Positions 1,023 to 42,368 of a stretch of 64,000 nt of DNA are shown piece by piece. This DNA comes from Bactericera cockerelli. Its lineage: Eukaryota > Arthropoda > Insecta > Hemiptera > Triozidae. The translations under genes were made by a program, and so were the position numbers. The stretch's first letter is position 1; each line of letters begins with the position of its first letter. The DNA lies in NCBI GenBank assembly GCA_024516035.1, contig CM044956.1, forward strand, positions 30,478,217-30,542,216, given 5' to 3'. A model generated the notes under the pieces. The model searched no databases and was not told where the DNA came from. It worked only from the letters and a program-made list of their open reading frames with translations.

Positions 1023-1266
1023 GCAGACGACAAGTAGATATTGTAAAGTTACCTGTTGATGTCCAATGGCAAGTAAAAGCAAAGCAGACGACAAGTAGAT
1101 ATTGTATATTTACCTGTTGATGTCCAATCGAAAATAAAAGCAAAGCAGACGACAAGTAGATATTGTAAAGTTACCTGTTGATGTCTAATGGAAAGTAAAA
1201 GCAAAGCAGACGACAAGTAGATATTGTAAATTTACCTGTTGATGTCCAATGGCAAGTAAAAGCAAA
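1023..1266. repeat. Tandem array, 61-bp unit containing a laminin splice donor (4 units)
   Basis: Units start at 1023, 1084, 1145 and 1206. On the minus strand each holds about 30 nt of the end of the LG2 exon (..GGACATCAACAG) followed by /GTAA and 28 nt of intron. The fourth unit is the real exon-intron junction. All four keep CAG/GTAA although the rest varies. Confidence 0.9.
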
Positions 1267-1407
1267 GCATCCTCATCAAAAGTTCGGAATGAGAGAGAAA
1301 CAGAGAAGAGATACTTGTTGTACGTGCTGATACTCTCGTGATGAAGCAGTGCATAGCCATCGCCTGAGAACTTGTACGCTAGCTCGTCCTGTCCATTCTC
1401 CTCGGCC
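1236..1407 (-). CDS. Laminin alpha exon: start of LG2
   Basis: 172 nt; acceptor TTGCTGAGCAG, donor CAACAG/GTAAATTT. Encodes LAYKFSGDGYALLHHESIS and FSVSLSFRTFDEDALLLLA, the start of an LG domain. No continuation is recognised in the remaining 1.2 kb, so the rest of the gene lies left of the window. Confidence 0.92.
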
Positions 1408-4400
1408 CTGCTCAGCAAATCAGAACGGAAAAATACAAATAATGAAGATAGGAATAGTGGGAATTCTCTGTACGGGCATTCATATTTTTCTCTGATAATG
1501 CTACCACTACTCGTTACTCATACAAGTTACTACTCATTTTTCAGTAGTTGCAAAAAAAATTCTATCCAGATTCAAAACCGGGTGACCTGCGTATTGACCA
1601 CGTGCGTTACTTACTCCGCCATGGTTACAAAAACAAAACACCCACTAATAGATAGTATACCACGTGTAATTGAGATACACGACTTAAATCTGTAGAAAAT
1701 TTCACGTTTTCAAAACAAATGAAACTTGCAGCTCAATAGCTTAGATTAGACCGCACAAGAGTTATGAATTGTGACTCAAACAGAGTTTAACTATGAAATA
1801 TATAAGTTCTCAGGAAAAACTTATAATTATAGGGTCAAGGGGGGTATTTACGAACAGGGGGTAATTACGAACAGTGGTCATTGTACCTAAACAGGATTAA
1901 GATATTTCGAATCTGGTGGTTGAATACTATTATTTTGAATTGTTTTTACAGGTTGAACACGAGTTTTCGATAGTATTTATTTTCAGTTGTAGTTAGTAAG
2001 CTAGTGAAAATAGATCTATCAAAAAAATTGTTTTTTGAAGTTTTTGATTTTTTTAAAACAATTTTTTAGGTAAGTGTTACTTGAATTTTTATCATTATTT
2101 TACTTTTAATTATTGATAAGCATGTTTTTGGTTATTATTTTATAAAAATAATTGTTTTAACCATTTTTTAAGTTATACTTTTTGGGTGTTCTTAATTACC
2201 CCCGCATTTTTTGCTATGGGGTAATTACGAACGCATATTTTGGGTGTTTGTTTTACCCTATAACTTTTTTTGTATTTATCAAAACACTCAGAATGACCCG
2301 GAACTACAAGATGAAGAAACCACCTCTTTTGTATACAGAAGCACAAATGATATCTGCTATCGTATTAGATGTTTTTAATGGCAACCTGGCTGTCAGAAGA
2401 GCAACGGCAGTGTTTTGAGATTCCGCAAACCAAAGTAGAATTTTCCAAACGTAAGGCTCAAAATCCTGAAATACTGGGAGGTTGTAAGAAGTACCAAGAT
2501 ATTAGTACCCTAATGTATTGGACCCAATGAAGGTATTTGTGTACTTGAACATAGCAAAAGAAAGGAAGAAAAATGAAAGTGTAGAAAAGGAAAAGAAATA
2601 TAGGGGGAACAGTTTCAAAAAAGAAGAAAAAAATGAAGGTAGAAGAAGACAAATCTGAGATTGACAATGACCTAGAAACTATTGATAAGACCAAAATCTG
2701 TAATAAAAAAAAATTAAAAAAATATATAAAACACCTTTCAAAAGCTCTCATAATTAACTATTACTATTATTATGCTTTTATTACCAGCCTCCGTGGCGTA
2801 ACGGTTGTGACTACTGCCCGTAGTCCAAAGATCCTTAGTTCGATTCCCGGTTGGAGCAGACTTTTCGCACAGAAAATTCTGTCCCCTCCGAACATGTGAG
2901 GCTGTCGATTCCGGCCCCACCCAGGCTGGGTGAGGTTAATGTGGGTAGATGGTACGATTCCCAGCGAATGGAGGGTGAAACCTCCGTCCTGTCTACCTCA
3001 AGTCAGGATGTTAAAACCAAATAGAATCAATGGACATGAAAGGAGCCTAGACATTGGATCTGGGCGTCCATATAATCCTCGCATCACCGTGATTTAGGTA
3101 TCTATACCTATCTCACGGACACGAAATTATTATTATTACTATCATTTGCAAGATAGAGATACCCTATTTGATAAGAGCTGACTACCTTCGTGGTTAGGAT
3201 TCAAACCACTATCCTGTGTGTCCATAAACTTTGCATATTGTCATACAGGTGGCTAAAGACACAAAGTACAATTTTGGTGTATTATTTGTACATAAAAAGC
3301 ACATATTGCCATTAAAATGTTCGTTTTTAATATTGTATAATGTGTTCGCATTTACCCCCGTCAGGCGGGGGTAAATGCGAACAGGCGGGGGTAAATAAGA
3401 ACACCACTAAACAGATACTACAGTATGCACAAAACTATTTATAATGCACCATTAGAATGCTAAATAAGTCTATATACCAAAAAAATCACAAGACATGGAT
3501 TTTACAAAAGCAACTCAGGGTTACAGATATGTTTATAAAATGTAGCTCAAAATCGTTCGTAATTACCCCCCTTGACCCTACACAACTCTTGGTAAAACCA
3601 ATAAACATCGAAATAATTTGAAGATAGAAAACACTTGGCTTTTTCTTGTTTTACTTAATTATTTATTTTTAAGTACTTTGTTATTTATTATGTTATTGTT
3701 ATTGTTATGAAATTATGTACAAATAAAGCACAATACTTGTTAAAAAAAAAAAAAAAAAAAATTATTTTCAGATGGCCATTTCGCCAGTTACGACATCGTC
3801 AGTGAACTAAAGACTAAATTTCAAAATAATCTAAGAGGTAACTTTCGAGCTAACTAAAGAGTTTTACTGCTAAAACCAATGCCAAGTAGCAGACTCACCC
3901 CTCTATACACACAGTGCAGGACAATGTCAAGTAGCAGACTCACCCCTCTATACACACAGTGCAGGACAATGTCAAGTAGCAGACTCACCCCTCTATACAC
4001 ACAGTGCAGGACAATGTCAAGTAGCAGACTCACCCCTCTATACACACAGTGCAGGACAATGTCAAGTAGCAGACTCACCCCTCTATACACACAGAGCAGG
4101 ACAATGTCAAGTAGCAGACTCACCCCTCTATACACACCGTGCAGGACAATGCCAAGTAGCAGACTCACCCCTCTATACACACCGTGCAGGACAATGCCAA
4201 GTAGCAGACTCACCCCTCTATACACACAGTGCAGGACAATGCCAAGTAGCAGACTCACCCCTCTATACACACAGTGCAGGACAATGCCAAGTAGCAGACT
4301 CACCCCTCTATACAGGACAATGCCAAGTAGCAGACTCACCCCTCTATACACACAGTGCAGGACAATGCCAAGTAGCAGACTCACCCCTCTATACAGGACA

Positions 4401-7400
4401 ATGCCAAGTAGCAGACTCACCCCTCTATACAGGACAATGCCAAGTAGCAGACTCACCCCTCTATACACACCGTGCAGGACAATGCCAAGTAGCAGACTCA
4501 CCCCTCTATACACACAGTGCAGGACAATGCCAAGTAGCAGACTCACCCCTCTATACACACCGTGCAGGACAATGCCAAGTAGCAGACTCACCCCTCTATA
4601 CACACAGTGCAGGACAATGCCAAGTAGCAGACTCACCCCTCTATACACACAGTGCAGGACAATGCCAAGTAGCAGACTCACCCCTCTATACACACCGTGC
4701 AGGACAATGCCAAGTAGCAGACTCACCCCTCTATACACACAGTGCAGGACAATGCCAAGTAGCAGACTCACCCCTCTATACACACAGTGCAGGACAATGC
4801 CAAGTAGCAGACTCACCCCTCTATACACACAGTGCAGGACAATGCCAAGTAGCAGACTCACCCCTCTATACACACCGTGCAGGACAATGCCAAGTAGCAG
4901 ACTCACCCCTCTATACACACAGTGCAGGACAATGCCAAGTAGCAGACTCACCCCTCTATACACACAGTGCAGGATTCGGACTGGGACCTGAAGTTCCACA
5001 GGCCCAGGGGTCTACCGTCCAAGGCCACTTGATGCAGGCACCCCACCAGGCCCGGCTGTCTGGACAAGAGCTGGGGGGGTCTATTCTCCGCCCCTCCTAC
5101 CCAGGCGCGGTCAGACGGGCCCAGGTCCAGGCGAGCTACACCGGGGGAGGAGGAGTTGGAGATGGGTAGGGCGGTGAGGAGGGGGGAGCCTAGAGGCAGA
5201 ACCACAGGGCGCACCAGCAGGTAACCCACGTTCGATATTCTGAAATCATAGGAGACAATTATGTCAAAATGGTTATAATAATAATAATAACATCGCCTGA
5301 TTTATACTGCCCGAAAAGGACTATTAAAGTCCCATTATTCCAGCAGTAAGCCCAAGACATATTATTATGTGGTACAAATCCCAAATGGGAGGATAACTTG
5401 TCATGTCCCGGCTGGGTTTCGAACCCACGACCTCTGGAACCTTTACCACTGAGCTACCGGGACAGAAAAACATGGGACCGACCTCAGTATTTTTACATCT
5501 TAATATATAAATGTCAAAGTCACTGACTGACTGACCACTGACTGATCATCGCTCTACAGCCCAAACCGTAAGTCCTAGGAAGCTGAAATTTGGTAGGTAG
5601 CTTTGTCTTATAGTCTAGATGTGCAATAAGGGATTTTTCGAAATTCCCACTACAACACCTGCCATTGGCGAAAAAGGATTTTTTGCTTTCACGGCCATGC
5701 CTCGGCCCGCAAAGCGGGCGACAGCCCGCTAGTATACGTATATGTAGAACTCGAGACACTTGACTCGTCGTCTTTTTGAAGTCAGTGCTTTCAGAATTAA
5801 TGGAAGAACATTGTATAAAAGTCGCGGGAAAATTTGAATGTGAATTAAGATGAGTTTGGTAGGTCTTTTTACTTTCTTACCTGAAAGATAAGATATTGTT
5901 TTCGGTCTGTTTTTTAAAAATTGAGCTGATCTTTTGTGGACGAGTTAGAGTATCTTGATTCCAAAAAAGTGATTTTTATCAACATGTCTGTTCGCACCAA
6001 GCAAAACTCTAGTTTTGCAACGCCAAGAAAACAAAACGAGCGTGCTATAATTGCTATATACAATCGTTTTCAAGGTAATTGTATTTTTTTTTTTTTTTTT
6101 TTTTTAATAGTCGTCTACACCTCATCACGGATAACAGAAACCTTAGGTTTCTGTGTGTCGTGTGAGGCAATAACTGACGCGTTACATTGGGTATTTATAT
6201 TATAAAATAATAATATGTGGTCTGACATTGTCATTGGTGTTGTTATATACATCAAGCGCTTGTATTATTGGGGACTTAAAAGTATAGTTGTCTTTACGGG
6301 GTATTTGAAATGGCTGTGCCCTGTTATCAGTCATTCTTAGTCGGGGGTCATTTGTTTTTCGGCACTGGAGTATTATCTGGTATATGTAAGGGCTGCAGAG
6401 TTTTCCGGTACTCACGTTTTGAATGAGTTTGATCTGGTCATTTCGTCTCCTCCCCTCAAGTGATTGCATGGGGAGATTTTCAGTGAGCAGATCATACTCG
6501 ATGTAGTTGGTATTTAAAGTAGTAGAGGTATTTAAAGGATTGTAATTTTCTTGGCGTCTTTTGCACACGTATTTTTGGGGAATGTATGTTATACAAAAAT
6601 CTCAAGAACAGTAAGTCCTAGAAGGATGAAATTTGGCAAGTATCTTGATAATTTGCAACGAGAACAATATCATGAAAATTGGACATTTGTTTTTTGGTTA
6701 TATCTCGAGAAAGAAAAAAATTCAAATAAATCTTTAACTTTGAGAGTTAAATTCAATAGAATAAAATGGTCCTGATACTTTACTTTACTTTCCGTGTCCA
6801 TGAAGGTTATGTGTCATGGTGGTGGAAGGATTGATGGGGGTATTACCCCCTTGGACGCCCAGAAATAATTGTGGGCTCCTTCCATGTCCTGTGACTCCTG
6901 TGTGGTGTTTGTTTAAAATATGAACAGTAAATTTTGATGTGAAAAATAGTCCTGATAAATCACAAGAACTTAGACTTTGCACGAATCTTACAGATAAAAC
7001 ATTCACTCGTACTACAATATCCTCACCTCTGGGCTTCTATCCTGTACCAGTGCTGATCATTGGCTAGGTCCCCTGCTGTCTGGATGTGCATGGGGTGAGT
7101 CACCTCCCCAGGGTCTCCCCCCAGGTTCCATACGAAGCGGATCTTACGATTTATCATCTCCACGGCCAGGAAATCTTCCTGCAAGTATAGAAACCATGAC
7201 ACGACTGAGCAATCATTTTTTTTTTTTATCTCTGTTTACACGCATATTATATGCAATTACGTAAACAGGTAACAGGATTAAAAAAAAAAAAAAAATCATT
7301 GAACTATTGTAGTGTACATACATTTTCATATGTATAGAGGTAAATTGTTAACTCGTACCTCTATACAGGATGGGTCATTTTAAGTGACGCAGTCGATTTT

Positions 7401-25400: not shown

Positions 25401-28400
25401 AGTATGTATTGAGAAGAAGAGAACTGGTTCACTCACATGAGCACGCCTGAGTATATATTGAGAAGAAGAGAACTGGTTCACTTACCCGAGCACGCCTGAG
25501 TATATATTGAGAAGAAGAGAACTGGTTCACTTACCCGAGCACGCCTGAGTATATATTGAGAAGAAGAGAACTGGTTCACTTACCCGAGCACGCCTGAGTA
25601 TATATTGAGAAGAAGAGAACTGGTTCACTCACCCGAGCGCGCCTGAGTATATATTGAGAAGAAGAGAACTGGTTCACTCACCGGAGCGCGCCTGAGTATA
25701 TATTGAGAAGAAGAGAACTGGTTCACTCACCCGAGCGCGCCTGAGTATATATTGAGAAGAAGAGAACTGGTTCACTTACCCGAGCGCGCCTGAGTATATA
25801 TTGAGAAGAAGAGAACTGGTTCACTCACCCGAGCGCGCCTGAGTATATATTGAGAAGAAGAGAACTGGTTCACTCACCCGAGCGCGCCTGAGTATATATT
25901 GAGAAGAAGAGAACTGGTTCACTCACCCAAGTATATATTGAGAAGAAGAGAACTGGTTCACTCACCCGAGCGCGCCTGAGTATATATTGAGAAGAAGAGA
26001 ACTGGTTCACTCACCCGAGCGCGCCTGAGTATATATTGAGAAGAAGAGAACTGGTTCACTCACCCAAGTATATATTGAGAAGAAGAGAACTGGTTCACTC
26101 ACCCAAGTATATATTGAGAAGAAGAGAACTGGTTCACTCACCCGAGCGCGCCTGAGTATATATTGAGAAGAAGAGAACTGGTTCACTCACCTGAGTATAC
26201 ATTGAGAAGAAGAGAACTGGTTCACTCACCCGAGCGCGCCTGTTCGTAAGCCTCCCCGGCGGCGGTGCTGGCGTCCAGTGCGCCCCTCCTGGCCCCCTCC
26301 AGCACGTCCACTATAGTCTGGTAGGCCCTGCTTGCCTTCACCGCTATGTCTGCATCTCGCCGCGTCGCGTTGAACAGCCCGGCATAGCGCTGTGCCTCTG
26401 CGCTTAGTCTGAAACATGTTTTCAAAGGATATTACATATTATTATTATTTCGAGGTAGATACATTTTTTGCTTCTAAGTTAATAGTGAGGAGACATTTCA
26501 GTCTATCTCACTAAAACTATAACTAGTATGTTAAAATTATTATTATTATTATTTCGAGGTAGATACATTTTTTTTTTTTTTTGCTTCTAAGTTAATAATG
26601 AGGAGACATTCCAGTCTACTATTATTATTATTATAGATTTATTAGGTAGAAGAAAAAATATATACAGTAGAATACAATGAAAGAAAAACAAAACGATTAA
26701 GCAAATATACAAGAAAAAAAAGACAATTGAAATGTCTCTAAGACAGGAACAACATACCAGTACGGTGGTCAAAACTAAACTGATCTTTTATTTCCCCAAA
26801 CTACACTGGCCGCTCTCTCATCTTTCAAATCATCAAACCCTACTATACATATTACATTATTCCTTCCTCTTCTTTTTTCTTTTTCTTTGCCTTTGTACAG
26901 GTAACCAATCTTCATCTTTCGGATCTTCATAACTCTCTGATGATTCGGCGCTTTGCCAATCACTTAGTTCTTCACAATTTTCTTCTTTTTGTACAGCCTC
27001 GTCAATATCTTCACTATCGTTGTTTAGATCGCTTGCATCATCTTCTGGTACTCTTTTACCAGAATCATCTTCTGATACTCTTTCATCAGCATCATCTTCT
27101 GGTACTCTTTCATCAGCATCATCATTAATAATATTATTCTCTTCATTCTCTCCACAGAAAATATCATTGGGGGTGGACTGACTTCCGCGCAGAATAAAAC
27201 CAGAAGGATCAATATATTTCTTGACTTGAGAGATATTCCTTGTGTACTGTTTGTTTGTTAACTGGGAACGTACAGTTACACTGGTTCCATTTCTTGCGAT
27301 GACTAAGTAAGGCTCCGGATCATATCTACTGCAGAGTTTGTTGGTTTTGTTTTGCTGCAGCAATACTGTATCTCCCACTTTAATGTTACTTTCTTTCGCG
27401 TGATGATGTTTGTCATAGTACTGCTTGTTTTTCATTTTGTGTTGAAAATCTCTGTCAAGAACCACAGGGTCCACATTGTATGCTGACTCTACTGATGGGA
27501 GTTTGTCTCGGAATTCTCTAGCAAACATGAGAAAAGCTGGCGTCTTTCCTGTAACAGAGTGAGGTGTAGAATTATAATTGAAGATAAATGTTCTCAAAGC
27601 ATTGTCCGGGTCTTCGTTATTCAGCTGGGCTATCTTCAATCTTTTCAAGATAGTCCTGTTTTGACGCTCAACTTCTCCATTAGCTTGAGGCCATTCTGGA
27701 GTGTTCAGATGCTGTACAATGTTATTTCCAATGCAGAAATCTCTGAGTTCTCTACTGATGAACTGTGGACCATTATCAGATATTATAACTTTTGGTAGAC
27801 CAAATGAGGAGAAAATCTTCCACAGTGTATTGATGGTTTTCTTTGCTGTAATAGAAGTGAGAAATTCGCATAAATAATATCTGCTGTAATGATCTATAAC
27901 CACGAGAACATAAGTACCATTAGGGAGTGGACCAAGGAAATCAACAGCAATAGTACTCCATGGTGATTCAGGCATACGAACTATTTTCATGGGCTCAGGA
28001 GAGCTAGGGTTTCCTACCACCTGACATTCATGACAAGACTTACAATAACTCTCGCAGTCTTTTTCCATATTATGCCACCACACTTTGGTTCTCAACTTTT
28101 GCTTCATCTTCACAATTCCAGGATGTCCTTCGTGAGCTAGGGATAGCGTGTGCTTCCTGAGAGATGGAGGGATGAAAATCCTGGTGCCTCTTAATATCAC
28201 GTCATCCATTACACACAGCTCTGTCTTGATTAATTCAAATTTCCTGAACTCTACAGGCCATCTGTCACATTGTATGGCTTGTTTCAGTGAGGACATCCTC
28301 GGGTCTCGCTGTGAATGTTCTCGAATTTCTTCTAGGCTCATTGCCTTGGGAGTGGCTTCCAAGGATACCCATCTCACATAGCGGTCACTTGAATCAAATG

Positions 28401-32935: not shown

Positions 32936-32979
<44 letters not shown>

Positions 32980-35900: not shown

Positions 35901-38900
35901 TTGTGATATCACGAAAGTGAGAAACACAAATATGATAACTTTTACTTTTAACACAAATATACATTTGCGAATTATGAGACTTTTATATTAGTCCACACGA
36001 AAAAAAAAAAAAAAAAAGTAGAATACACACCTTCCTTGAATTCATTTGCGAATTAAGAGACTTTTATATTAGTCCACACGAAAAAAAAAAAAAAAAGTAG
36101 AGTACACATACACACCTTCCTTGAATTCATTTGCGAATTATGAGACTTTTATATTAGTCCACATGAAAAAAAGAAAAGAAAAAAAAAAAAATAAAAAAAA
36201 TAAGAAGAATACACACCTTCCTTGAAGAGGAGGTCGAGTTCAATAACCTTGTCGAGCAGCAGATCCGTGCACCCATCCTGGCAGGAGGCACAGCCCCGGG
36301 ACGTGAGGATGTGGCGCGGCTCACACTGGCTGCAGTCCCGGCCCGTGATGCCTAGCCTGCAGTTGCACTGGCCCGACTCCTCATGGCACTCGTCACTCAC
36401 GCTGCCGTAGGGGGAACAGTTGCAGGGGGCACACGAACCACTCGGCTGCGAGGGAAACCCGAAGTAGCCGTACGCACACCTAAATAAAATAAATAGATAA
36501 ATAAAGGCGACATGGATAAATAAAATAGCCTTAATTAAAAATTTCAAGGTTTACAAATTACAATATAAGTTATTTACATGCAATAACATATTAATATTAT
36601 TTTTTTTTTCAAAATAACTTAATTAAAAATTTCAAGGTTTACAAATAACAATAGAAGTTATTTACATGCAATAACATATTAATATTATTTTTTTTTTCAA
36701 AATAACTTAATTAAAAATTTCAAGGTTTACAAATAACAAAATAAGTTATTTACATGCAATAACATATTAATATTTTATTTTTTAAAGGTAATTGTGCCCC
36801 GGAACCGCTTTCGCATTACTTCAGGGCACTTTACCTTTACATCCATGCCATTTCGGAAACGGAAAACTCGGTTAGAATTTTCCGCTCCCCCCGCGATTCG
36901 AACCCACAACCTCCGGGTCAGCAACCAATGCTCTTAACCACTGAGCCACGGAGGTCGGCTAATACTAATAACATAACTTTTTATTCAATTGTATATAATA
37001 TACATACATACGAAAAAGTAAAAATATTATTTAGATGAATAAATCATCTAATTGAAGGCCTCCTATGGGCATCTAAACTCTGAACCTAAATTATGGTATA
37101 AATTCCAGATGCCCACAGGGAAGGTGTTACGTTCTTTAAATTGTAACACCCCTAATACAGGCGAGATACAGTGGAATAATGCAAAGTTATGGGAATAAAT
37201 AATATTTAATGAGTAAGTATGCATCTTTGCACCTACAATAGGTAACTACCTACTTTTAAAAATCAACAATGAGTGTGACAGTTGTCAGGGACAACCCATG
37301 ATACTCACCATCGCTTCAAATTTCCACAAAATCCAACCACTCTCACAGTCATGGACCTATGGGAAAAACCTAAAGACGTTGCGAAAGTCCTAGGACTTAA
37401 ACTAACAAATGATTGAAGGATGAGACTGCACACTAGCTAAATGTCGCTACAAAAAGAACAACTATTCTTAAAAACCAATTAGAGGAAGTTGATAAACATC
37501 CTTTAGTCTGAGGTACAGTGATTCAGGTGCTAGCGTTATTATTTCCATGACAATTTATTACTGTCAAGTTCATTTCTTTGTTTACTTCGTCAAGATCTCA
37601 GCTCTGGCCGCTACGTATCAAATCTTACCTATCACACAAGGGTCCAGTGTTCTAGGTCTAATGATCTTACCTATCACACAAGGGTCCAGTGTTCTAGGTC
37701 TAATGATCTTACCTATCACACAAGGGTCCAGTGTTCTGGGTCTAATGATCTTACCTATCACACAAGGGTACAGTGTTATGGGTCTAATGATCTTATCTAT
37801 CACACAACCCAGACAGCACGGCAGTTGACTTCCAGTCTGGATTTAAGGTGGAAATATCCAGGTGTATAAAGTCAACTGGACCTCCAACTGTCCCGACAGC
37901 TGGATTTTTCCATCATGGATTAAATCAGTTGACCAGCCACCTGGATATTTCCAACAAAAATCCATCTAGACTCAGTCACCTGGGCAGTCAGCTGGAAATA
38001 TAACGACTCTCTCCAGCTAGGACATGAGTAGAATTTAGTCAGTTGACCAGTCAGCTGGAAATGTTCCATATTTTTCCAGTTTACATAAAACGCGTCCTTT
38101 GTTGAAGACGCCATCTTTGATCTGTCGTAATTTCAGAAATTGTGATATTGGTGATTGTAAATTGTTTTAAATAATTAATAATTCTTTTAAATATTAGGTA
38201 TTTTATTTAATTTTGAACATTTTTAAATACAAATATCATTTTATTTAGTTTTGATCTTTTTTATAACTACTGGAAGTGTTTAGATAAAACTCGTAGATAA
38301 AACTCGTCCTTTGTTGAAGGAAATTCAGAAATTGTGATATTTTTGTGACAAATTGTGAATTGTTTTAAATAATTAATAATTCTCTTAAATATTAGGTATT
38401 TTATTTAGTTTTGAACATTTTTAAATACAAATATCATTTTTTACTTTGTCTTTGTGAAGAAAGAGGACAATCATAGTGTTTACTTTGTCATTTCTGAACT
38501 CCAAATTTGCTTTCGAGATGTTTCAAAAAATAGTTCTTTAGTTTATCTAAATCGTGACAGAAGAAAGAGGACAAGAAGCAGTTAATACTGGATCACCTTT
38601 TTCATCTGACAATAACCATCCATTTCTAGAGACATCCACTTGGACCCTAACGAACTTTCTGCACTCTCCTGTTCCTGGACCTTCAGTGGGATTAACACCT
38701 TCAGTTCACTTGGAATCATACCAGCTACCCATATTAATCTCACCTAGCCTAGCCAAGCCAAAGTAGGACCATGAATGCTAGTCTCATGTGTTAAGGGAAA
38801 CAGAATTTTTTATGCTCAAGATCTCTTGACCATAGGTTGGCTAAAAAAAGGTTCTGGTTCAAGCAAAGAAACAGCTGAATGCATAGTGCTAGATAGTGAA

Positions 38901-41657
38901 ATTTTTCACTCTGTGGATTTTATTTAGATGTACAATACATATTATTATAAAATGAATATTTCACTGATAGGTGGTTCTGCCACACTAAAAAATGATGTTT
39001 AGGTACTTTGTGACATGCTTCCTGATTACTTGATTTATAATTAATTGGCCAATTTACTGTGCACTGTTCATAATAACAATAATAACTATTGTGCTCTCTC
39101 TACCACCTTATTACTATGAAGGCCCTTAAATTTTGAGTTAATTTTATATCTATTTAAAAAAAGTGTTCCACACTATTGTGTTTTATAATTTCACTAGTCT
39201 TAACTAGTCAATTTTGTTTTAATTTAAGTATAACAATGTTTTTTGGTAATAATTCTCAAAGCAAACAACCCAGCAATTCTAATTAGCCACAGCAGTACAT
39301 AAATTGTCATGAAGGATTACAAATACATAATAACATTCACTAATCCATGTTCAACCCCGTTAGACATTGCTTAACTTTTGCAATTTCATGAAAACTGGTG
39401 TATTCCATGCCCCATCTTCATTTTCTGCTGGCTATTAGTTTATTTCTTTGTTATTTTTGGTTTCTCAAAAGAAATATATTTTAATTTACATAGTATTATT
39501 ATTTTATTGTGATTATGTACATGTTATGAGCATATTTTATAATTGGATATCATTATTTTATTTCTATACTAGCTAAAACCTGGCATTTTGTCACCATTAA
39601 GGTTTTTTCTCATGGCCGGTGTCCCAATAAAAATAATAATAACACTTTTAACTGGAAGGTAACCACCAGGTAAGGTTAAAGGTTATGCTCAAAGCATTTT
39701 CTACCACCTAACCCTCAGAGTCTTATTATTATGTGGTCACAACCATAATGAGGAAAAAATTGAAACAACGGAACCCTACGCTAGGTTGATTATCTGACTA
39801 GCGCATTAACCACTTGATTACCAGTGCACTTGAAAATTGTATTAGATATTTTAATTTTGATAATTTTCTAGTATGTTGAAGGTGGCTTAGGGGGGGTGAA
39901 CTCTCAGTACCGTTTGGTATTGTAACCCCAAGAGGACATAGTCAGCCAGACATGCATAACTTTGAGTTTTATATATAGAGATTATACCTACTTAGGAAAT
40001 ACTTTACATTGGTACAAGGTCTTGTGACATGATGGAAATTTGATAGTGCATTTTACACTTTTGGGACAATTTTTTTAATAATAAACACTCTTATTGTAAA
40101 AATATAATAATGTTAAAGAGTCTTATTTGAATTGTGTTGTTTAAAACAGATTAGTTATTTTCTTTTTCTTTCCAAATTTCTATATAAAAAAAATTATACT
40201 CAAAATTGTGTGTGTGTACGTGTTAAAAAAACCTATTTAAAATTTATTACCTACTTTATTTTTATACAAAAAAAAATATTCTTCATGAGATTTGAATGCA
40301 TGGCCTCTAAATTAAATAACTGAAATTGAATTTATGCCTAATATACATTTGTTTCTAGTATTTTTATTACTATTATTATTTGAAAAAAAAAGGCATATAA
40401 TGGGATTCGAACCCACAACCTCAAAACCAAGAGCGTAGCATTTGATTATTATGTAGTATAATGTACAGTATAGGTAAATAGGTATGTCAACATTGTGGTA
40501 GTGAGTTACTACCCATCCACTAGAGAGCGCTACAAGTAGCTGGAAATAAGTGGAACAAATCCAGTTGACTTTGGGCAACTGACTTCCAGTTAAAAGTTGG
40601 GTTACTTTCCAGTTCATTTCCAGTTGATTTCCAGGTGGAGGTCAGGTGGAAGGTGGAAATCTCCAGCTGATTTCCAGGTGGGCAAGTAGACTTTTTCCAC
40701 CTAACAGTATGGTATACATCCAGTTGACTGTGCTGTCTGGGAAGGGTCCAATGTTCTGGGTCTAATGATCTTATCTATCACACAAGGGACCAGTGTTCTG
40801 GGTCTAATGATCTTATCTATCACAAAAGGGTCCAGTGTTCTGGGTCTAATGCTCTTACCTATCACACAAGGGTCCAGTGTTCTGGGTCTAATGATCTTAT
40901 CTATCACACAAGGGTCCAGTGTTCTGGGTCTAATGCTCTTACCTATCACACAAGGGTCCAGTGTTCTGGGTCTAATTATCTTATCTATCACAAAAGGGTC
41001 CAGTGTTCTGGGTCTAATGCTCTTACCTATCACACAAGGGTCCAGTGTTCTGGGTCTAATGATCTTATCTATCACACAAGGGTCCAGTGTTCTGGGTCTA
41101 ATGCTCTTACCTATCACACAAGGGTCCAGTGTTCTGGGTCTAATTATCTTATCTATCACACAAGGGTCCAGTGTTCTGGGTCTAATGATCTTATCTATCA
41201 CACAAGGGTCCAGTGTTCTGCGTCTAATGATCTTATTTATCACACAAGGGTCCAGTGTTCTGGCTCTAATGATCTTACCTATCACACAAGGGTCCAGTGT
41301 ACCCCGGCTTACAGAAGCACTGGGTCTCATGATCTTACCTATCACACAAGGGTCCAGTGTACCCCGGCTTACAGAAGCATTGGGTCTCATGATCTTACCT
41401 ATCACACAAGGGTCCAGTGTACCCCGGCTTACAGAAGCACTGGGTCTCATGATCTTACCTATCACACAAGGGTCCAGTGTACCCCGGCTTACAGAAGCAC
41501 TGGGTCTCATGGCCAGCGGACACAAGGCAGGCCCGGGCGAAGTTCTGATGGGCAGAGGGGCAGGGGCAGGGCCGGCAGGAGCTCTCGGGAGGGGGGGCAC
41601 CATAGTAGCCTTCAGCACACGCCTCGCAGCGAGGACCTCCGGTGTTGTCCCTGCAGT
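1236..41657 (-). CDS. Laminin subunit alpha (partial gene, 15 exons)
   Basis: Basement-membrane laminin alpha chain, a secreted protein that forms a heterotrimer with beta and gamma chains through its coiled coil and binds receptors through C-terminal G domains. Exons, 5' to 3': 41657-41459, 36479-36217, 35286-35102, 34440-34181, 33381-33207, 32296-32159, 31713-31583, 26408-26230, 16598-16443, 16028-15819, 15254-15032, 8076-7938, 7178-7027, 5239-4952, 1407-1236. Every junction is GT-AG and phases agree throughout, giving about 957 codons without a stop. Residues 1-110 are cysteine-rich LE modules, about 115-705 the coiled-coil arm, about 706-900 LG1, and LG2 starts after 905. The LE/coiled-coil boundary reads CEPRHILTSRGCASCQDGC, closest in my memory to the vertebrate alpha-1/alpha-2 type (fly wing blister); the paralogue is not settled. 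Both ends are missing. Introns hold an intact LINE and an intact Gypsy element, and five introns begin with donor-containing tandem arrays. Confidence 0.95.
2293..2418 (+). pseudogene. Pogo-type transposase N-terminus (psq-like HTH), broken
   Basis: Starts MTRNYKMKKPPLLYTEAQM and continues through a helix-turn-helix-like stretch (NGNLAVRRATAVF) before a TGA. The pattern R-NYK-K followed by a repeated-helix HTH is that of pogo/CENP-B-like transposases. The catalytic core is not readable downstream (frames broken, low-complexity lysine-rich sequence), so it is non-functional. Confidence 0.55.
2786..3132 (+). repeat. tRNA-derived SINE, family 1
   Basis: Head reads CCTCCGTGGCGTAACGGTT, then a TTCGATTCCC B-box-like motif; the tail ends in an ATT microsatellite. 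Inverted and partial copies of the same family are at 8510-8776, 38690-38770 and 45893-45960. Confidence 0.75.
3880..4951. repeat. Tandem array, 45-bp unit containing a laminin splice donor (about 25 units)
   Basis: Each unit on the minus strand copies the last 23 nt of the LG1 exon (ending TATAGAGGG) and the first 22 nt of the intron (GTGAGTCTGC...). Three shortened 36-bp units sit near 4300-4440. Unit lengths are multiples of three and neither strand contains a stop in one frame, which produces spurious 370- and 381-codon ORFs. Confidence 0.95.
4952..5239 (-). CDS. Laminin alpha exon: end of LG1
   Basis: 288 nt; acceptor TATGATTTCAG, donor GAGGG/GTGAGTC. Encodes WVGG and then GLVGCLHQVALDGRPLGLW, the diagnostic LG C-terminal motif. 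The last 23 exon nt plus 22 intron nt are the unit of the adjoining 45-bp array. Reading past the first donor meets an in-frame TGA at once, so use of downstream donors would truncate the protein. Confidence 0.94.
5398..5465 (-). repeat. tRNA-like SINE head or tRNA relic
   Basis: Minus strand reads GTCCCGGTAGCTCAGTGG .. GGTTCGAAACCCAGCCGGGAC, with A- and B-box sequences and a paired acceptor stem, but at about 60 nt it lacks a full anticodon arm. Not a functional tRNA gene. Confidence 0.55.
5498..5732 (+). mobile_element. Non-autonomous Helitron
   Basis: Begins TCTTAATATATAAATGTC after an A and ends CTAG before a T, preceded by a GC hairpin (GCCCGC..GCGGGC). The interior has the 'cagcccaaaccg..gctgaaatttgg' signature of widespread arthropod Helitrons. 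235 bp, no ORF. A related fragment is near 6597-6660. Confidence 0.8.
6200..6545 (-). pseudogene. LINE reverse-transcriptase C-terminal fragment
   Basis: Minus-strand frame with SLEGRRRNDQIKLIQNVST, then GKLCSPYIYQII and ending FKSPIIQALDVYNN. This order (LE-RR..., C-P-, F-SPI-----YN) is the usual C-terminal tail of Jockey/CR1-type LINE ORF2 proteins. It is a 5'-truncated relic with no RT core. Confidence 0.6.
7027..7178 (-). CDS. Laminin alpha exon: LG1 core
   Basis: 152 nt; acceptor ATACTTGCAG, donor CAGAG/GTGAGG. Encodes EDFLAVEMINRKIRFVWNL and WYRIEAQR, the classic LG strand pattern. Confidence 0.95.
7376..7724. mobile_element. TA-flanked MITE, complete
   Basis: 349 bp between TA dinucleotides (7374-7375, 7725-7726). 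Ends CAGGATGGGTCATTTTAAG and, inverted, CAGGGTGAGTCATTGTGG share the GACTGCG/CGCAGTC core. No coding capacity. Confidence 0.75.
7938..8076 (-). CDS. Laminin alpha exon: start of LG1
   Basis: 139 nt; acceptor TTGTTCCCAG, donor ACG/GTAATATA. Encodes KDSGTCVRSYQPPKLEPTT and HRDALLFYLPS, the first strands of a laminin G domain. Confidence 0.92.
8510..8776 (-). repeat. tRNA-derived SINE, family 1 (inverted)
   Basis: Inverted relative of 2786-3132: head complement GCCACGGAGGCTGC at the right, then GGGAATCG and CCTCACCCAGCCTGGGTA. The left part carries GGCTGGATGCCCTTCCTAAC, a common LINE-derived SINE tail; similar tail-like sequence continues left to about 8400. Confidence 0.7.
8803..8920 (+). repeat. 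tRNA-derived SINE, family 2 (partial)
   Basis: Reads AAGGCGGCGAACTCGTAAC, GGTGGTTCGAGTCAC and a tail with AACAGATGTACATATAATAG. Same family as 35801-35950 and 46229-46392, and inverted copies at 57043-57152 and 58826-58937. Confidence 0.6.
8921..10228. other. Intronic sequence upstream of the LINE ORFs
   Basis: AT-rich. The last few hundred bases are probably the LINE 5' UTR, but the element's 5' boundary and target duplication cannot be found by eye. Only short unconvincing ORFs (9664-9870). Confidence 0.4.
10229..11152 (+). CDS. LINE ORF1 protein
   Basis: About 307 codons from ATG at 10229 (GTG at 10220 is in frame but less likely). The N-terminal 80 residues are a charged, heptad-like coiled coil (QREVNKNTDSKF, ERVEKNEERINKLETREQL). 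A basic middle follows (ERKVSLIVFGVQGEY ... KRMFKLGRKKW), resembling the RNA-binding part of transposase-22/L1 ORF1-type proteins, and then a low-complexity Q/N/K-rich tail. Role by family: RNA chaperone and ribonucleoprotein formation. No CCHC knuckle is visible. It ends in TGA followed directly by CTAG, with the endonuclease frame open beyond. Confidence 0.82.
   Translation: MGDEATNSLLNQIKEMLNGKLDSVQREVNKNTDSKFLGVQNVLREIQNENKDTRERVEKNEERINKLETREQLDERKVSLIVFGVQGEYLSDVMNQILLVVKEIGIDMNKYQIKRMFKLGRKKWSEEGPLKIVLTSSILRNDILKNKHKIKSNNQIKFKEDLSKEEQQTRTKLVKFSLAAKSKGENVHMKNDKLVINGKSWTLQQLEEEEISNQEDFEMKDSNLDNTIITITEVRDKNLKRTYAEHSPISSTQPQHASTPISKKGRTNTLDGKEQKQMNLQDMWSLTPKNNQEIENKNKTIATNDLF
11153..14494 (+). 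CDS. LINE ORF2: endonuclease and reverse transcriptase
   Basis: Open from the codon after the ORF1 stop to TAA at 14492-14494, about 1,113 codons. Domains in order: an AP-type endonuclease starting KIKILFWNVHGLNN at 11171, with E of CLSETWE, GGDFNSRIG (about 11597-11625), IDLVWVN and SDHFQL; then reverse transcriptase with AFIDFKMAFNKVPH (about 12968-13010), GVMQGDCAS and the catalytic YADDLVLFAD at 13318-13347; then a C-terminal C-x2-C...H-x4-C motif (CTICN ... THIFENC). There is no ATG before the endonuclease start: the first in-frame ATG (11336) falls after the first endonuclease motifs. Translation therefore probably depends on ORF1 readthrough or reinitiation at a non-AUG codon. Confidence 0.9.
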   Translation, partial: LDTNHKKIKILFWNVHGLNNFFDRNGDADDELEIQSADIICLSETWETKDWNPPQDLDVTQMYNVHAIKDRSTGRASGGITTMMKNNYKSKIIESSDLWMIIEITLNLEIITIINLYLKPNLDSEEVLTQLEHSISKLINNDEDINLIVGGDFNSRIGLLNNIDEDFAEMLHVNHHRNNEDIKINERGKILVESMEKLGLLVLNGRTKGDGNGNFTYTSTNGASTIDLVWVNLNALNLIDDLYVSEKNNKSDHFQLILCLSSNTLETDEDSPKKIRKQEIKYKWKPEQKDLYTQETNCIKIKDSDNANTIYKELIKTINKASSKTDMVQSALKCTTKNPSQKWYDKECRESKYHMMKALRKWKRKQQEIEVYLKARKHYKHILAKKKDLYEIKIQEIVANIRNPKEFWKTINSFKKNNYQKNNITIKQWESYLKCTLKTDSITLENRLLYDARHQELDEEITEKELEKAIMNLKNNKTPGPDAILNEQLKNLGENCLKSLVKMYNLILNEKEIPENLPLANITMLYKKGESDNPNNYRSISLLNGIFKLLTYILAQRIIYWGEKNKIFNENQGGFRPKRGCQDNIFTLASIIQIRLNSTNKKLYCAFIDFKMAFNKVPHNLLWQKLYNNGISTKVINCMKNLYHHAKSRIKVIRPHINKSNRCKSLGVEYTQLVNVEVGVMQGDCASSVAFILFLNDMEEYFRKNEMRGVSINNQNEILLLLYADDLVLFADSRPQLQRQLDTLKNYCAENLIEVNVDKTQVIVFKKNGRKKNSEIFQYQNQELKVTSEFRYLGTVFTSSGRFTKQAEKAKERANVATGVAKSMLIGAKVQSWETRRKLYEAITKATLLYGSEVWGLVHSDEVEVAQLAYYKSIYGMARTTPNYVVRVEMGIEHTMVTILKLCLSWWEKLLTMDKERLPRICYEKLIELDQKSPDKKYNWVSQLKKMLEELEENDMWLDQNAEKIKIHKNRIIEKLSQKMKNQDWVRIKNSTYVPHYQYIKTTDTIEHYLLSRIPFDRTKLICQARCAGTFIHFISEGISYNWNSNNLCTICNLMEEETITHIFENCPVYTVERKKYLKNNNTNRILQVRDPEETKCVYLFLKFMLKKRSKYK
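14609..15031. other. Intronic, A-rich retrotransposon-tail-like sequence
   Basis: A second A run at 14683-14706 and an AAATAAATC stretch suggest another retroelement tail. No gene is visible. Confidence 0.35.
15032..15254 (-). CDS. Laminin alpha exon: end of coiled coil
   Basis: 223 nt; acceptor AATATTTCAG. Ends ARHLADGIRLSLTSK, the conserved approach to LG1. Two phase-compatible donors exist: TCCAA/GTTAGTAC (chosen, because laminin alpha goes from the IRLS segment straight to the first LG cysteine) and CTCAA/GTAAAT 29 nt further on. Confidence 0.82.
15819..16028 (-). CDS. Laminin alpha exon: coiled-coil arm
   Basis: 210 nt; acceptor CTGTTTACAG, donor CTAGAAG/GTAGGACT. Encodes SKELASVDKSAQDMLMSSG through LKLLSLEG. 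Confidence 0.9.
16255..16375. repeat. Dispersed repeat, copy 1
   Basis: Contains AAATTGAAATCGGAGCAAAA and CCGATTTCTAATATTATAA..ACGGAAGTAATA. The same pair of motifs occurs at 42425-42535 and, inverted, at 52205-52350. Confidence 0.5.
16443..16598 (-). CDS. Laminin alpha exon: coiled-coil arm
   Basis: 156 nt; acceptor TTATTTTCCAG, donor CTCCGGG/GTAATA. Encodes TDSLVDQSTSAEEKSRVLK and ends SVLRG. Phase 1 at both ends. Confidence 0.88.
16850..17040 (-). repeat. Dispersed retroelement-like repeat, inverted copy
   Basis: Inverse of 41690-41855: shared CGTCATCTCACAC, AAGTATGGTCCTT, TCGTGGGATGC, AATGACAGTTTACATAATTC and TGACAAGTAAATGGTTCAAA. Confidence 0.6.
17667..19507. mobile_element. TA-flanked fold-back element, copy 1
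   Basis: 1,841 bp. Ends CAGGGTGTCCCGTATACAG, with about 400-bp inverted arms (17667-18063 and 19111-19507) and TA on both sides; removing element plus one TA restores the array unit exactly. The interior holds poly-A/T stretches and a degenerate SINE family 3-like piece (GTAGCGCAGAGTC..TTTTTCCTCATGA). No transposase. Confidence 0.9.
20588..22431. mobile_element. TA-flanked fold-back element, copy 2
   Basis: 1,844 bp, nearly identical to copy 3 and slightly more different from copy 1 (for example GCGTTTTGC versus GCATTTTGC near the left end), with the same TA insertion point in the 49-bp unit. Confidence 0.9.
23071..24914. mobile_element. TA-flanked fold-back element, copy 3
   Basis: 1,844 bp. 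The order of variant 49-bp units after this copy repeats the order after copy 2, so copies 2 and 3 arose by duplication of element plus array, not by separate insertion. Confidence 0.9.
26230..26408 (-). CDS. Laminin alpha exon: coiled-coil arm, source of the 49-bp donor array
   Basis: 179 nt; acceptor ATGTTTCAG, donor CGCTCGG/GTGAGTGAACC. Encodes LSAEAQRYAGLFNATRRDA through EAYEQARS. The last 13 exon nt and first 36 intron nt form the unit repeated about 73 times in the following 9.1 kb. Confidence 0.92.
26444..26628. repeat. Short tandem duplication
   Basis: The segment TTCGAGGTAGATACATTTTT..AGTTAATA(G/A)TGAGGAGACATT occurs at about 26450 and again at about 26552, separated by ATT microsatellite. 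Confidence 0.6.
26636..26727 (-). repeat. LINE 3'-tail repeat, part split by the Gypsy insertion
   Basis: Inverse of 34498-34676 and 58229-58399 (ATTAGGTAGAA..ATATATACAGTAGAATAC). The other part of the same copy lies at 31155-31215, on the far side of the LTR element. Confidence 0.6.
26728..26856 (-). repeat. 3' LTR of the Gypsy element
   Basis: 129 bp, TG...CA, identical to 31026-31154. On the minus strand it begins immediately after the TAA of the gag-pol ORF. Confidence 0.93.
26857..31002 (-). CDS. Gag-pol polyprotein of the Gypsy element
   Basis: One ORF of 1,381 codons from ATG at 31002 (an in-frame TTG lies two codons earlier). Approximate positions: Gag with two zinc knuckles, CSKCG at 210-225 and CLKCGIVGHYSRCC at 235-248; aspartic protease FLVDSGAS near 305; reverse transcriptase with YIDDW near 600; RNase H ADASPVALGG near 743; integrase with an HHCC zinc site (958-995) and D, D, E residues near 1021, 1077 and 1110. 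The C-terminus has an acidic 9-residue repeat (DDADERVPE and variants, DNA 27020-27125) and a basic tail RKRKKKRKE. Gag and Pol are fused in one frame, with no env. No stop or frameshift is seen. Motifs place it in Ty3/Gypsy, near elements with single fused ORFs; the clade is not settled. Confidence 0.94.
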   Translation of the reverse strand: MSSVICNIKPFVCGGDECSIAQRWTRWIRSIELFFTAENITDSKRKQAQLLHLGGEDLQNIWFALNVNEEEEKKDPYKYCSEKLNELFKEKKSYTYERNVFRKMNQNDGESTSQFVMRLKTQVKNCDPEHYGENEMIIDQVIEKSTSSELRRLLLKEGDKLTIEKLLEVARTLEQSENHARAIEGKLDPNYMISKVKEMHSKISNDRGKYCSKCGLSSHWKSDKSCPAQEARCLKCGIVGHYSRCCKNETNAKRHGGYQEQVRQVELESDSSQDENTFSVFTVISKSDMMNITLKGQVNIKFLVDSGASVNILDFDSWRYLKRKNPSLFYEETGKKLFAYGSDTPLPIIGKLECDISISNGTKLKNVKFFICQSNGVPLLSGDTAKKLGILKIGIPINSVEGKSQPSPLSLESVREKFASVFSGNVGKLKDYQLKLMIDEKVAPVALPSRRIPQNLRNKVKSKLKELAEQDIIEKVNEPSQWVSPIHCKIKKNGELRMCIDMRWANKAVVRERYPIPTVYDITANLHGSYVMSKLDMNSAFHQIELDDSSRAITTFSTCDGTYRFKRLFFGLNCASEMFQRTLEGIRDKLEGVELYIDDWLVHGKDQEEHDRRLIAFLSELEKANLTLSYEKCEIGKNTLEFMGHRISSEGVKPVQSKVKAIEEFRSPQTKEELKSFLGLLGFCSRFIPDYSTQTECLRHLLKKNAEFKWTKVHENSFISLKKSLSDSRVLGFFEKKFKTAIIADASPVALGGVLIQYQESGPRVIEFASRSLSHSERNYSQIEKEALAIVWACERFHYYVYGAEFKLLSDHKPLEFIFSQRSKPSPRIERWVMRLQGYDYTVVYCPGKDNIADPLSRLCDTTPNSKPFDSSDRYVRWVSLEATPKAMSLEEIREHSQRDPRMSSLKQAIQCDRWPVEFRKFELIKTELCVMDDVILRGTRIFIPPSLRKHTLSLAHEGHPGIVKMKQKLRTKVWWHNMEKDCESYCKSCHECQVVGNPSSPEPMKIVRMPESPWSTIAVDFLGPLPNGTYVLVVIDHYSRYYLCEFLTSITAKKTINTLWKIFSSFGLPKVIISDNGPQFISRELRDFCIGNNIVQHLNTPEWPQANGEVERQNRTILKRLKIAQLNNEDPDNALRTFIFNYNSTPHSVTGKTPAFLMFAREFRDKLPSVESAYNVDPVVLDRDFQHKMKNKQYYDKHHHAKESNIKVGDTVLLQQNKTNKLCSRYDPEPYLVIARNGTSVTVRSQLTNKQYTRNISQVKKYIDPSGFILRGSQSTPNDIFCGENEENNIINDDADERVPEDDADERVSEDDSGKRVPEDDASDLNNDSEDIDEAVQKEENCEELSDWQSAESSESYEDPKDEDWLPVQRQRKRKKKRKE
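31026..31154 (-). repeat. 5' LTR of the Gypsy element
   Basis: 129 bp, identical to the 3' LTR; contains the presumed promoter. Followed on the minus strand by the primer-binding candidate at 31025-31013. Confidence 0.93.
31227..31475. repeat. Direct repeat, about 185-bp spacing
   Basis: CTTTACTAAAATTTGCCATG followed by CTTGG(G/T)ACTCGAA occurs at about 31229 and 31424; related to the tails of SINE family 2. Nothing else is seen in this intron part. Confidence 0.5.
31583..31713 (-). CDS. Laminin alpha exon: coiled-coil arm
   Basis: 131 nt; acceptor GCTTTCTCAG, donor GCCAG/GTGAGAC. Encodes ELEELSSELLNLSSSVEDR and ends in the first two bases of an Arg codon completed by the next exon. Confidence 0.88.
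32159..32296 (-). CDS. Laminin alpha exon: coiled-coil arm
   Basis: 138 nt, phase 0 to phase 0; acceptor GTTAAAG, donor TTTGTG/GTAAGTAT. Encodes VVYTGLEGRVRQIDKMAEE and onward, an amphipathic helix with an acidic end. Confidence 0.88.
32939..32976. repeat. Long poly-T run
   Basis: 38 consecutive T, the minus-strand tail of a retroposed sequence or a homopolymer; it generates a false poly-Phe ORF. Confidence 0.8.
33207..33381 (-). CDS. Laminin alpha exon: coiled-coil arm
   Basis: 175 nt; acceptor CTGTTTCAG, codon split with the previous exon (GA/T). Reads DECTDILYHVKDKMTNRLT and ends TESNR. The donor AACAGG/GTATGG is weaker than its neighbours but leaves phase 0, matching the next exon. Confidence 0.85.
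33763..33863. repeat. Triplet of 20-bp palindromes
   Basis: GAGGTACATATATGTACCTC at 33763-33782, a near copy at 33805-33824 and GAGGTACGTATGTGTACCTC at 33844-33863, with TCATGTCATGA / TCATGACATGA inverted between them. Confidence 0.75.
33983..34100 (-). mobile_element. GGGCGGAATTAATAGAC MITE fragment
   Basis: Inverse partial copy of the family at 45238-45510 and 54511-54632 (shared GTCGATTTTCCCTATCTTAC, CCGTGACTTAGC, CAGAGGTATTACAA). Confidence 0.6.
34181..34440 (-). CDS. Laminin alpha exon: coiled-coil arm (GC-rich)
   Basis: 260 nt, acceptor TTCTTACAG, donor TTTGA/GTGAGT. Alanine- and glutamine-rich helix (for example ALYSQAQASLAQAHSNTSW). Much richer in G and C than the surrounding intron. 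Apparent ORFs in other frames here are shadows of this exon. Confidence 0.9.
34498..34676 (+). repeat. LINE 3'-tail repeat
   Basis: Reads GGGTGGAAGAGATTGCCATA..CTTTAGGTAGGACATTTC..TGTTCTACCTAATAAAG then A16. The same tail is at 58229-58399 and, split and inverted, at 26636-26727/31155-31215. Pattern of a 5'-truncated retrotransposon 3' UTR. Confidence 0.65.
35102..35286 (-). CDS. Laminin alpha exon: coiled-coil arm
   Basis: 185 nt between ATGTTTCCAG and donor GAACAG/GTAGAG. Contains the IAPPWAPLLALDSNASVLE segment typical of the start of laminin alpha domain II, then heptad-like sequence. Ends in phase 0. Confidence 0.9.
35801..35950 (+). repeat. tRNA-derived SINE, family 2
   Basis: Reads CCTCAGTAGCTTGATCGATA (A box), GGAGGTCGGTGGTTCAAGTC (B box), then a tail with TTGTGATATCACGAAAGTGA and AACACAAATATGATAAC. 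Confidence 0.7.
35957..36216. repeat. Tandem array, 85-101-bp unit containing a laminin splice donor (3 units)
   Basis: Junction copies CTTCCTTGAA next to the donor complement occur at 36031, 36116 and the real exon at 36217. On the minus strand each unit has TTCAAGGAAG/GTGTGTATTC, a T run and AGTCTCATAATTCGCAAATG. Only about the last 10 exon nt are included. Confidence 0.85.
36217..36479 (-). CDS. Laminin alpha exon: last LE modules and start of coiled coil
   Basis: 263 nt; finishes an LE module (RCAYGYFGFPSQPSGSC), contains another, then enters the coiled-coil arm at CTDLLLDKVIELDLLFKEG. Acceptor TTTATTTAG, donor GAAG/GTGTGTATTC. The donor and the last 10 exon nt recur in a three-unit array downstream. 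Confidence 0.94.
36527..36782. repeat. Tandem triplicate, about 88-bp unit
   Basis: Three copies of TTAATTAAAAATTTCAAGG..AGTTATTTACATGCAATAAC ahead of the acceptor of the LE/coiled-coil exon. Unlike the donor arrays it does not include exon sequence. Confidence 0.75.
36783..36960 (-). repeat. tRNA-derived SINE, family 5
   Basis: Minus strand: CCTCCGTGGCTCAGTGGTTA, GGTTGTGGGTTCGAATC, then a tail containing AAAGTGCCCTGAAGTAATGC. A and B boxes visible; not a functional tRNA because of the fused tail. Confidence 0.65.
36961..37619. other. Unassigned intron sequence
   Basis: AT-rich. No ORF, RNA gene or family recognised apart from short runs shared with nothing else in the window. Confidence 0.4.
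37620..41450. repeat. Tandem array, 42- and 60-bp units containing a laminin splice donor, split by a transposon
   Basis: Next to the exon are three 60-bp units (41271, 41331, 41391), each the last 52 exon nt plus GTAAGATC. Then come about 12 units of 42 bp (40742-41270) and, beyond the inserted element at 37808-40741, about four more (37620-37807). The 42-bp unit equals the 60-bp unit with about 20 exon bases removed and TC left. The GAT/GCT pattern of neighbouring 42-bp units gives an 84-bp dimer. Confidence 0.93.
37808..40741. mobile_element. 2.9-kb terminal-inverted-repeat DNA element, non-autonomous
   Basis: Ends CCCAGACAGCACGGCAG and, inverted, CCCAGACAGCACAGTCAAC. Both ends carry clusters of TCAACTGGA / CAGCTGGAAAT subterminal repeats (37830-38060 and 40550-40730). 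It interrupts the 42-bp array between CACACAA and AAGGGTCC, leaving at most a 2-bp AA duplication. The interior has duplicated AT-rich blocks near 38150-38430 and a SINE family 1 fragment (38690-38770). No transposase was found; the superfamily is not assigned. Confidence 0.8.
41459..41657 (-). CDS. Laminin alpha exon: LE (EGF-like) module
   Basis: First laminin exon in the window, 199 nt. Acceptor CCCCCCACAG, donor GATAG/GTAAGATC. It encodes a cysteine-rich run starting CRDNTGGPRCEACAEGYYG and ending KPGYTGPLCDR, the C-x-C spacing of laminin-type EGF modules. The last 52 nt and first 8 intron nt are repeated three more times just downstream, so which donor copy is used is ambiguous from sequence alone. 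Confidence 0.93.
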
Positions 41658-42268: not shown

Positions 42269-42368
42269 NNNNNNNNNNNNNNNNNNNNNNNNNNNNNNNN
42301 NNNNNNNNNNNNNNNNNNNNNNNNNNNNNNNNNNNNNNNNNNNNNNNNNNNNNNNNNNNNNNNNNNNN
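42269..42368. other. Assembly gap (100 N)
   Basis: Exactly 100 N, the usual placeholder for a gap of unknown length. The truncated 5' part of laminin and the truncated 3' part of DGAT1 both face it. Confidence 0.98.

Follow-up and report, generated by a model that had tools for sequence, protein, structure and literature searches.

The closest described relatives of the repeats analysed here are the 'mirages' of amphioxus, minisatellites located at exon-intron boundaries. In the portions of the published reports available to us they are described for Adh (Adh3) and the globin genes BflGb6 and BflGb9 among other loci (PMC3087553), and PGBD5 and troponin C add further examples (PMC3902484). According to the same portions, mirages are found at both 5' and 3' boundaries, splicing is reported to be undisturbed (PMC3087553, PMC3902484), and the edges of the clusters are excluded from homogenisation (PMC3087553). 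The original prediction for the locus studied in this work stated that no class of minisatellite seeded at splice donors had been described, a statement which, in the light of these accounts of the amphioxus mirages (PMC3087553, PMC3902484), has to be withdrawn. A class of exon/intron-boundary arrays is already in print, and the arrays described below, by their anatomy, fall within the definition of a mirage. It must be noted that our search for prior art was limited, and donor arrays may already have been published for organisms other than amphioxus.

Work by Zhuo et al. in 2007 reportedly dealt with human genes in which internal tandem repeats alter introns or exons. Human tandem repeats at exon-intron boundaries, involving splice sites, were proposed to create new introns or to alter exons, as stated in the accessible part of another report (PMC2812944). 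For Drosophila, the sections available describe intron gain by tandem duplication of an AG/GT-containing segment, in the form of single duplications proposed to give a new intron (PMC2891723). A paper on C. elegans intron minisatellites (PMC4039745) and a review on introns (PMC3488318) were, in the parts consulted, without direct bearing on the arrays.

The laminin gene and its surroundings

The window, i.e. the whole stretch of 64,000 nucleotides of Bactericera cockerelli DNA that was analysed, carries on the minus strand of bases 1-42268 a C-terminal part of a laminin alpha chain gene. We placed 14 exons, one fewer than the 15 predicted originally; when joined, they encode 910 amino acids in a single frame with 0 stops, and the borders are AG/GT throughout. 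E1 (41657-41459) and E2 (36479-36217) are laminin EGF exons (Pfam EGF_laminin, E=3.8e-20). E9 (8076-7938), E10 (7178-7027), E11 (5239-4952) and E12 (1407-1236) encode the LG domain part; E10-E12 matched Pfam Laminin_G_1, and the best PDB matches of E9-E12 were laminin alpha-1 (2.3e-33) and alpha-2 (2.4e-33). The remaining exons, E3 (35286-35102), E4 (34440-34181), E5 (26408-26230, in the coiled-coil part), E6 (16598-16443), E7 (16028-15819) and E8 (15254-15032), together with E4a (33381-33207) and E4b (31713-31583) between E4 and E5, are assigned to laminin by position and frame; for E3-E8 a Pfam query that left out E4a and E4b gave 0 laminin matches.

To the right of the laminin exons lie three exons of DGAT1 (45744-42913; PDB match 5.6e-22, Pfam match none). 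The seven exons of RBM39 extend from 61615 to about 53700; exons 2-7 matched Pfam RRM_1 and RBM39linker, and exon 1, which was outside the Pfam scan, was assigned from its SR-rich frame alone. The C-terminus of RBM39 has an arthropod-like look. A scaffold gap of 100 N at 42269-42368 shows that the laminin and DGAT1 sequences were joined there. The laminin exons to the left and the DGAT1 exons to the right are both partial at this point, and the join may conceal much sequence or be wrong.

The window contains several other repeats. A dispersed repeat (AGGTATTACAAAAACGTCTATTAATTCCGCCC...) was found at 45249-45489, about 33980-34110 and 54510-54560, twice in tandem and elsewhere. For RBM39 exon R6 the 3' splice site (54508) coincides with the end of one copy, so that a repeat seems to provide this acceptor. 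The E8-E9 intron of laminin holds LINE-like reading frames that are open (10199-14491, plus strand), and the E4b-E5 intron a Gypsy-like polyprotein frame, likewise open (26860-31011, minus strand); they look like young insertions. An Rfam tRNA match at 5404-5463 (minus strand; 30 bits, cut-off 29) is perhaps a tRNA-derived short interspersed element.

Five arrays at laminin donors

At 5 of the 14 laminin donors the donor is followed by tandem copies of the exon end, the junction and the start of the intron. The first intron bases of these donors are 1235 (E12), 4951 (E11), 26229 (E5), 36216 (E2) and 41458 (E1). These positions had been predicted exactly; all five arrays were recovered by TRF, and a junction probe agreed. 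Followed in the direction of transcription, every array begins within the exon and continues into the following intron, and all of them are on the minus strand. The E12 array (1023..1269) consists of a 61-bp unit, which reads tttgcttttacttgccattggacatcaacag|GTAAATTT... across the junction and includes the last 31 nt of the exon; there are 4 junction copies, and the donor at 1235 is CAG|GTAAAT. In the E11 array (3877..4974; donor at 4951) the unit is 45 bp with 22 exonic nt, three spacings correspond to 36-bp variants, and each of the 25 junction copies has GGG|GTGAGT. The exon-proximal block of the E5 array (24915..26242; donor at 26229) is made up of 49-bp units with 13 exonic nt and contains 28 junction copies; four spacings are 39 bp, and some of the 39-bp variants lack most of the exonic part. 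The E2 array (35962..36226) has an 85-101-bp unit with 10 exonic nt and 3 junction copies, spaced by 101 and 85 bp, its donor being AAG|GTGTGT at 36216. The unit of the E1 array (40742..41511), with 52 exonic nt and the donor TAG|GTAAGA at 41458, is 60 bp long in the first copies and 42 bp afterwards, as a result of an 18-nt deletion; this array has 16 junction copies, and an outlying block of 42-bp units (37622..37807) is located in the same intron. The unit sizes and the range of 10-52 exonic nt are those predicted originally.

When the five units were compared pairwise, at least 21 of 200 shuffles scored equally high in all ten pairs, which points to five unrelated units, again as predicted, and to independent origins of the arrays. 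The GC content of the units ranges from 22 to 52%.

The E5 family is the largest. Beyond the exon-proximal block it includes three further blocks of 49-bp units on the minus strand (22432-23070, 19508-20587 and 17132-17666, within 17132..24914), so that the four blocks stretch from 26242 down to 17132 (~9 kb) and take up the greater part of the intron in which they lie (26229 to 17132; the acceptor is at 16598). Between the blocks there are three copies of a 1.84-kb element that carries long inverted repeats at its ends, the copies being 99.6, 98.9 and 98.9% identical. In the segment 17667-24914 this element (ends CAGGGTG...CACCCTG, TATA site) alternates with the 49-bp blocks as a higher-order repeat. 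The simplest reading is that a single element would have inserted into an already existing 49-bp array and was later amplified along with it. At 26180-26200 a shortened E5 unit (...ctcAG|GTGAGT) forms an acceptor abutting a donor and resembles a recursive-splicing ratchet point. The E5 unit contains a pyrimidine tract, CAG, a 10-nt exon and a donor; the idea that the units are cassette micro-exons was set aside, as it would need 39-nt introns.

The association with donors was examined with a 20-nt probe over every junction, allowing up to 4 mismatches, on both strands. The junction set consisted of 23 donors (14 from laminin, 9 from DGAT1 and RBM39) and 24 acceptors. Same-strand copies were detected at 5/23 donors (E12 3, E11 24, E5 68, E2 2, E1 20), always downstream, in agreement with the prediction that the arrays extend to the intron side, and, within the window, at 0/24 acceptors (Fisher two-sided p=0.022). 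On the opposite strand there was a single match, for the E12 donor. None of the 9 DGAT1 and RBM39 donors had same-strand copies, and the difference between these and the laminin donors (0/9 vs. 5/14) was not significant (Fisher p=0.12).

For the comparison with chance we selected, from the TRF rows of bases 1-42268, those with 2.5 or more copies of a unit measuring 40 bp or more and merged them into six families, counting the four E5 blocks as one family and the E1 rows with the 37622 block as another. Five families cover a donor, none covers an acceptor, and one is purely intronic. The latter, an 88-bp AT-rich array of 3 copies (36522-36783), ends 42 nt before E2 and is the only large non-donor family in the gene. 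When six whole arrays were placed at random, with E5 represented by its first block and E1 by its main block, at least five fell on donors at a frequency of 7.8e-4 (200,000 trials), and a null model requiring only that the donor lie inside the founding unit gave P about 1e-8; these P-values describe this window, which was picked because of the arrays, and not the genome. Within the window, the placement of the arrays on donors is not due to chance. Introns with arrays were no longer than the others (4 vs. 9 introns, p=0.15; p=1.0 with the arrays subtracted; the E12 intron, which exits the window, was excluded), and the idea that longer introns attract arrays is not supported.

The exon-proximal donors give an open reading frame, whereas extension of the exon to a downstream copy left the frame open in none of the 71 copies scored (for E5 the first block only, for E1 the main block only). 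In the printed examples the stop occurs 1 codon (E1, E11), 2 codons (E5), 16 codons (E12) or 22 codons (E2) past the exon. GT is retained in 63 of the 71 scored copies, in line with the prediction that most units keep a donor, and many of them share the 9-mer of the donor predicted to be used. The scored downstream copies all lead to stops yet many keep GT, therefore the first donor presumably must prevail through its position or the exon context. All 8 losses of GT were found in the E1 array (8 of its 15 downstream copies), where GTAAGA changed to ATAAGA; in the E11 array all 24 downstream copies retain GGG|GTGAGT. Among full-length copies, changes were more frequent in the donor 9-mer than elsewhere in the unit for E5 (17/207 vs. 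36/920, p=0.016) and less frequent for E11 (0/189 vs. 13/756, p=0.08), with no difference for E12 and E1 (p=0.34 and 1).

Origin and persistence of the arrays

The exonic part of the E1 unit lies within sequence that aligns to laminin gamma-1, and that of the E11 unit within sequence that aligns to laminin alpha-1 and alpha-2, which argues that, in these two at least, the array derives from the coding exon. The LG alignment of E12 to LAMA2 runs through FRTFDEDALLL and so reaches only the first few residues encoded by the exon side of the unit, and the exonic parts of E2 and E5, which are short or outside the matched domains, fall outside these alignments.

With regard to the growth of the arrays, in E5 and E1 the copies in the middle differ from the exon unit more than those at either end; the far E5 block has 1-3 and the outlying E1 block 1-2 mismatches to the exon unit. 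In E11 the core is identical to the exon unit, and differences are confined to the far end. Internal homogenisation would fit the divergent middles seen in E5 and E1. In partial sets the distance from the exon unit increased along the array (E11 rho 0.54; E1 rho 0.69; E5 first block, full-length copies, rho 0.74), but for the E5 block the gradient fell to rho 0.24 (p=0.23) when shortened copies were kept, and it was absent over all four E5 blocks (rho 0.06, n=69) and in the E1 core (rho 0.19). Growth with new copies always born at the exon was not upheld by the last two values. The suggestion in the original prediction that microhomology at AG/GT seeded the duplications was rejected: the junction is interior to every unit, with 10-52 nt separating it from the edge on the exon side and 8 nt or more from the opposite edge, and flank and unit end share 0-3 nt (the E2 value is approximate, its 101-nt first unit having been cut to 85).

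The anatomy of the arrays, their independence, their extension into the intron only, the frame that is open with the first donor only and the element nested in the E5 array can be read directly from the DNA. On this basis we think it probable that the laminin gene contains five mirage-type minisatellites, each anchored in an exon and of independent origin, which grew after donor-spanning tandem duplications and were tolerated since the first donor works. The initial event would be a tandem duplication of about 45-100 bp across an existing 5' splice site, including the last 10-52 nt of the exon and the first nucleotides of the intron. The exon-side copy would stay coding with its donor, leaving the mRNA unchanged if the first donor is used, whereas the downstream copies would become intron, free to expand via slippage and unequal exchange, to diverge and to lose their donors; in the E5 array the intronic copies would also have taken up the transposable element. 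Duplications within exons or over acceptors would usually alter the mRNA and be removed, so that donors would be the places where exon-derived arrays can survive. The parts that we infer are that the first donor is used in vivo, that selection filters the duplications, and how and when the arrays were amplified. Such a survival filter would account for the preference for donors over acceptors and exon interiors, but not for that over plain intron, which is a real puzzle: the filter alone predicts mostly intronic arrays, yet five of the six families are on donors (P about 1e-8 for the founding unit). The excess over the larger neutral intron space needs either a raised rate of duplication at exon edges or a longer persistence of exon-anchored arrays. 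The filter argument is also weakened by the amphioxus mirages, which, in the portion of the report available, occur at acceptors as well (PMC3087553), and the explanation has to be judged on five events in one gene, with p=0.12 for laminin against the other donors.

A raised duplication rate is what one would expect if donors were active duplication hotspots in this genome, at which tandem duplications arise from a process linked to transcription or splicing, such as an R-loop, a stalled polymerase or repair at the edge of the exon. The excess of arrays on donors over random placement, the 5/23 donors against 0/24 acceptors and the GC range of the units, for which base composition alone is insufficient, all fit this explanation. 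However, the process itself is conjectural, n is only five, 18 of the 23 donors have no array, and filters based purely on survival can also favour donors over acceptors; we consider such hotspots unlikely. Function of the arrays, as spare donors or as many U1-binding sites guarding splicing or preventing premature intronic transcript ends, could explain the GTs kept in 63 of the 71 scored copies and the intact E11 donors. It is made improbable by the more variable donor 9-mer of E5, by the loss of 8 of 15 GTs in E1, by the stop that follows each scored internal donor and by the array introns being no longer than the others. The donor sites are not consistently conserved, and selection for redundant donors, one of the causes put forward originally, is not supported.

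The same anatomy would be expected if the arrays in the introns were older and the first unit later supplied the exon end, or the exon end slid into it. E2 and E5 are compatible with this order of events, but laminin domains align to the exonic parts in E1 and E11 and, in E12, to the beginning of that part, and five coincident slides within a single gene make it very improbable. Equally hard to credit is the view that the introns are newborn, through Rogers-type gain by duplication of an AGGT proto-splice site, even though, judging from the available parts of the papers, such a mechanism has been reported from Drosophila and from human genes (PMC2891723, PMC2812944) and the E5 blocks span most of their intron. 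Both ends of such an intron would stem from one duplicated segment of the exon, whereas junction copies were found at none of the 24 acceptors, and the introns of E1, E2 and E11 hold much unrelated sequence past the array. The scaffold join at 42269-42368 might raise the suspicion of an assembly artefact, but the arrays are all inside the contig to its left and their copies are distinguished by point changes, deletions and the nested repeated element. There is thus very little likelihood of an artefact, and the original prediction judged this correctly from the point differences.

Returning to the mirage-type arrays tolerated behind a working first donor, one may ask whether they reflect something wider, namely that in this organism minisatellites are seeded all over the genome at 5' splice sites but not at acceptors, with exon ends serving as selected master copies for repeatedly growing intron arrays and donor-specific intron lengthening occurring outside cephalochordates. 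This is possible, though we hold it to be rather doubtful. If it were true genome-wide outside amphioxus, donor-only seeding would make mirages a general mode of intron evolution, not a lancelet oddity. Five independent arrays in one gene offer a natural series for two questions: how the spliceosome chooses the first among up to 28 near-identical successive donors, and whether tandem duplication is raised at exon edges, a point relevant to how introns lengthen and to how they may be gained through AG/GT duplication.

Comparison with known boundary repeats

It is instructive to set the laminin arrays beside the systems named above, as these are described in the accessible portions of the respective reports. 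The human internal tandem repeats are proposed to create introns or alter exons (PMC2812944), whereas the laminin coding sequence would be unchanged if the first donor is used. The Drosophila intron gains (PMC2891723) and the laminin arrays have in common the duplication of an AG/GT segment; in laminin the result is arrays inside introns, not a new intron.

The amphioxus mirages, as far as those accounts go, are more similar. In both cases a tandem unit spans the exon-intron boundary (units of 10 to about 160 bp in the mirages, 10-52 exonic nt per unit here), and splice signals are present in many but not all copies (here GT in 63 of 71). Mirages are associated with apparently normal splicing; for the laminin arrays the sequence shows a frame that is open only with the exon-proximal donor. 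The homogenised interior and distinct edges of the mirage clusters can be compared with E5 and E1, where the middles are most divergent from the exon unit, and with E11, where only the far end is. Length and somatic polymorphism is reported for mirages; the laminin arrays were read from one haplotype. Unlike the one or two clusters per gene, at both boundaries, described for mirages, there are five arrays in one gene here, at donors only, and one laminin family extends over 9 kb with a nested repeated element. What distinguishes the laminin case from the known mirages is thus the density, the restriction to donors and perhaps the taxon: the arrays are real, ordinary in kind, and unusual in their number and donor bias.
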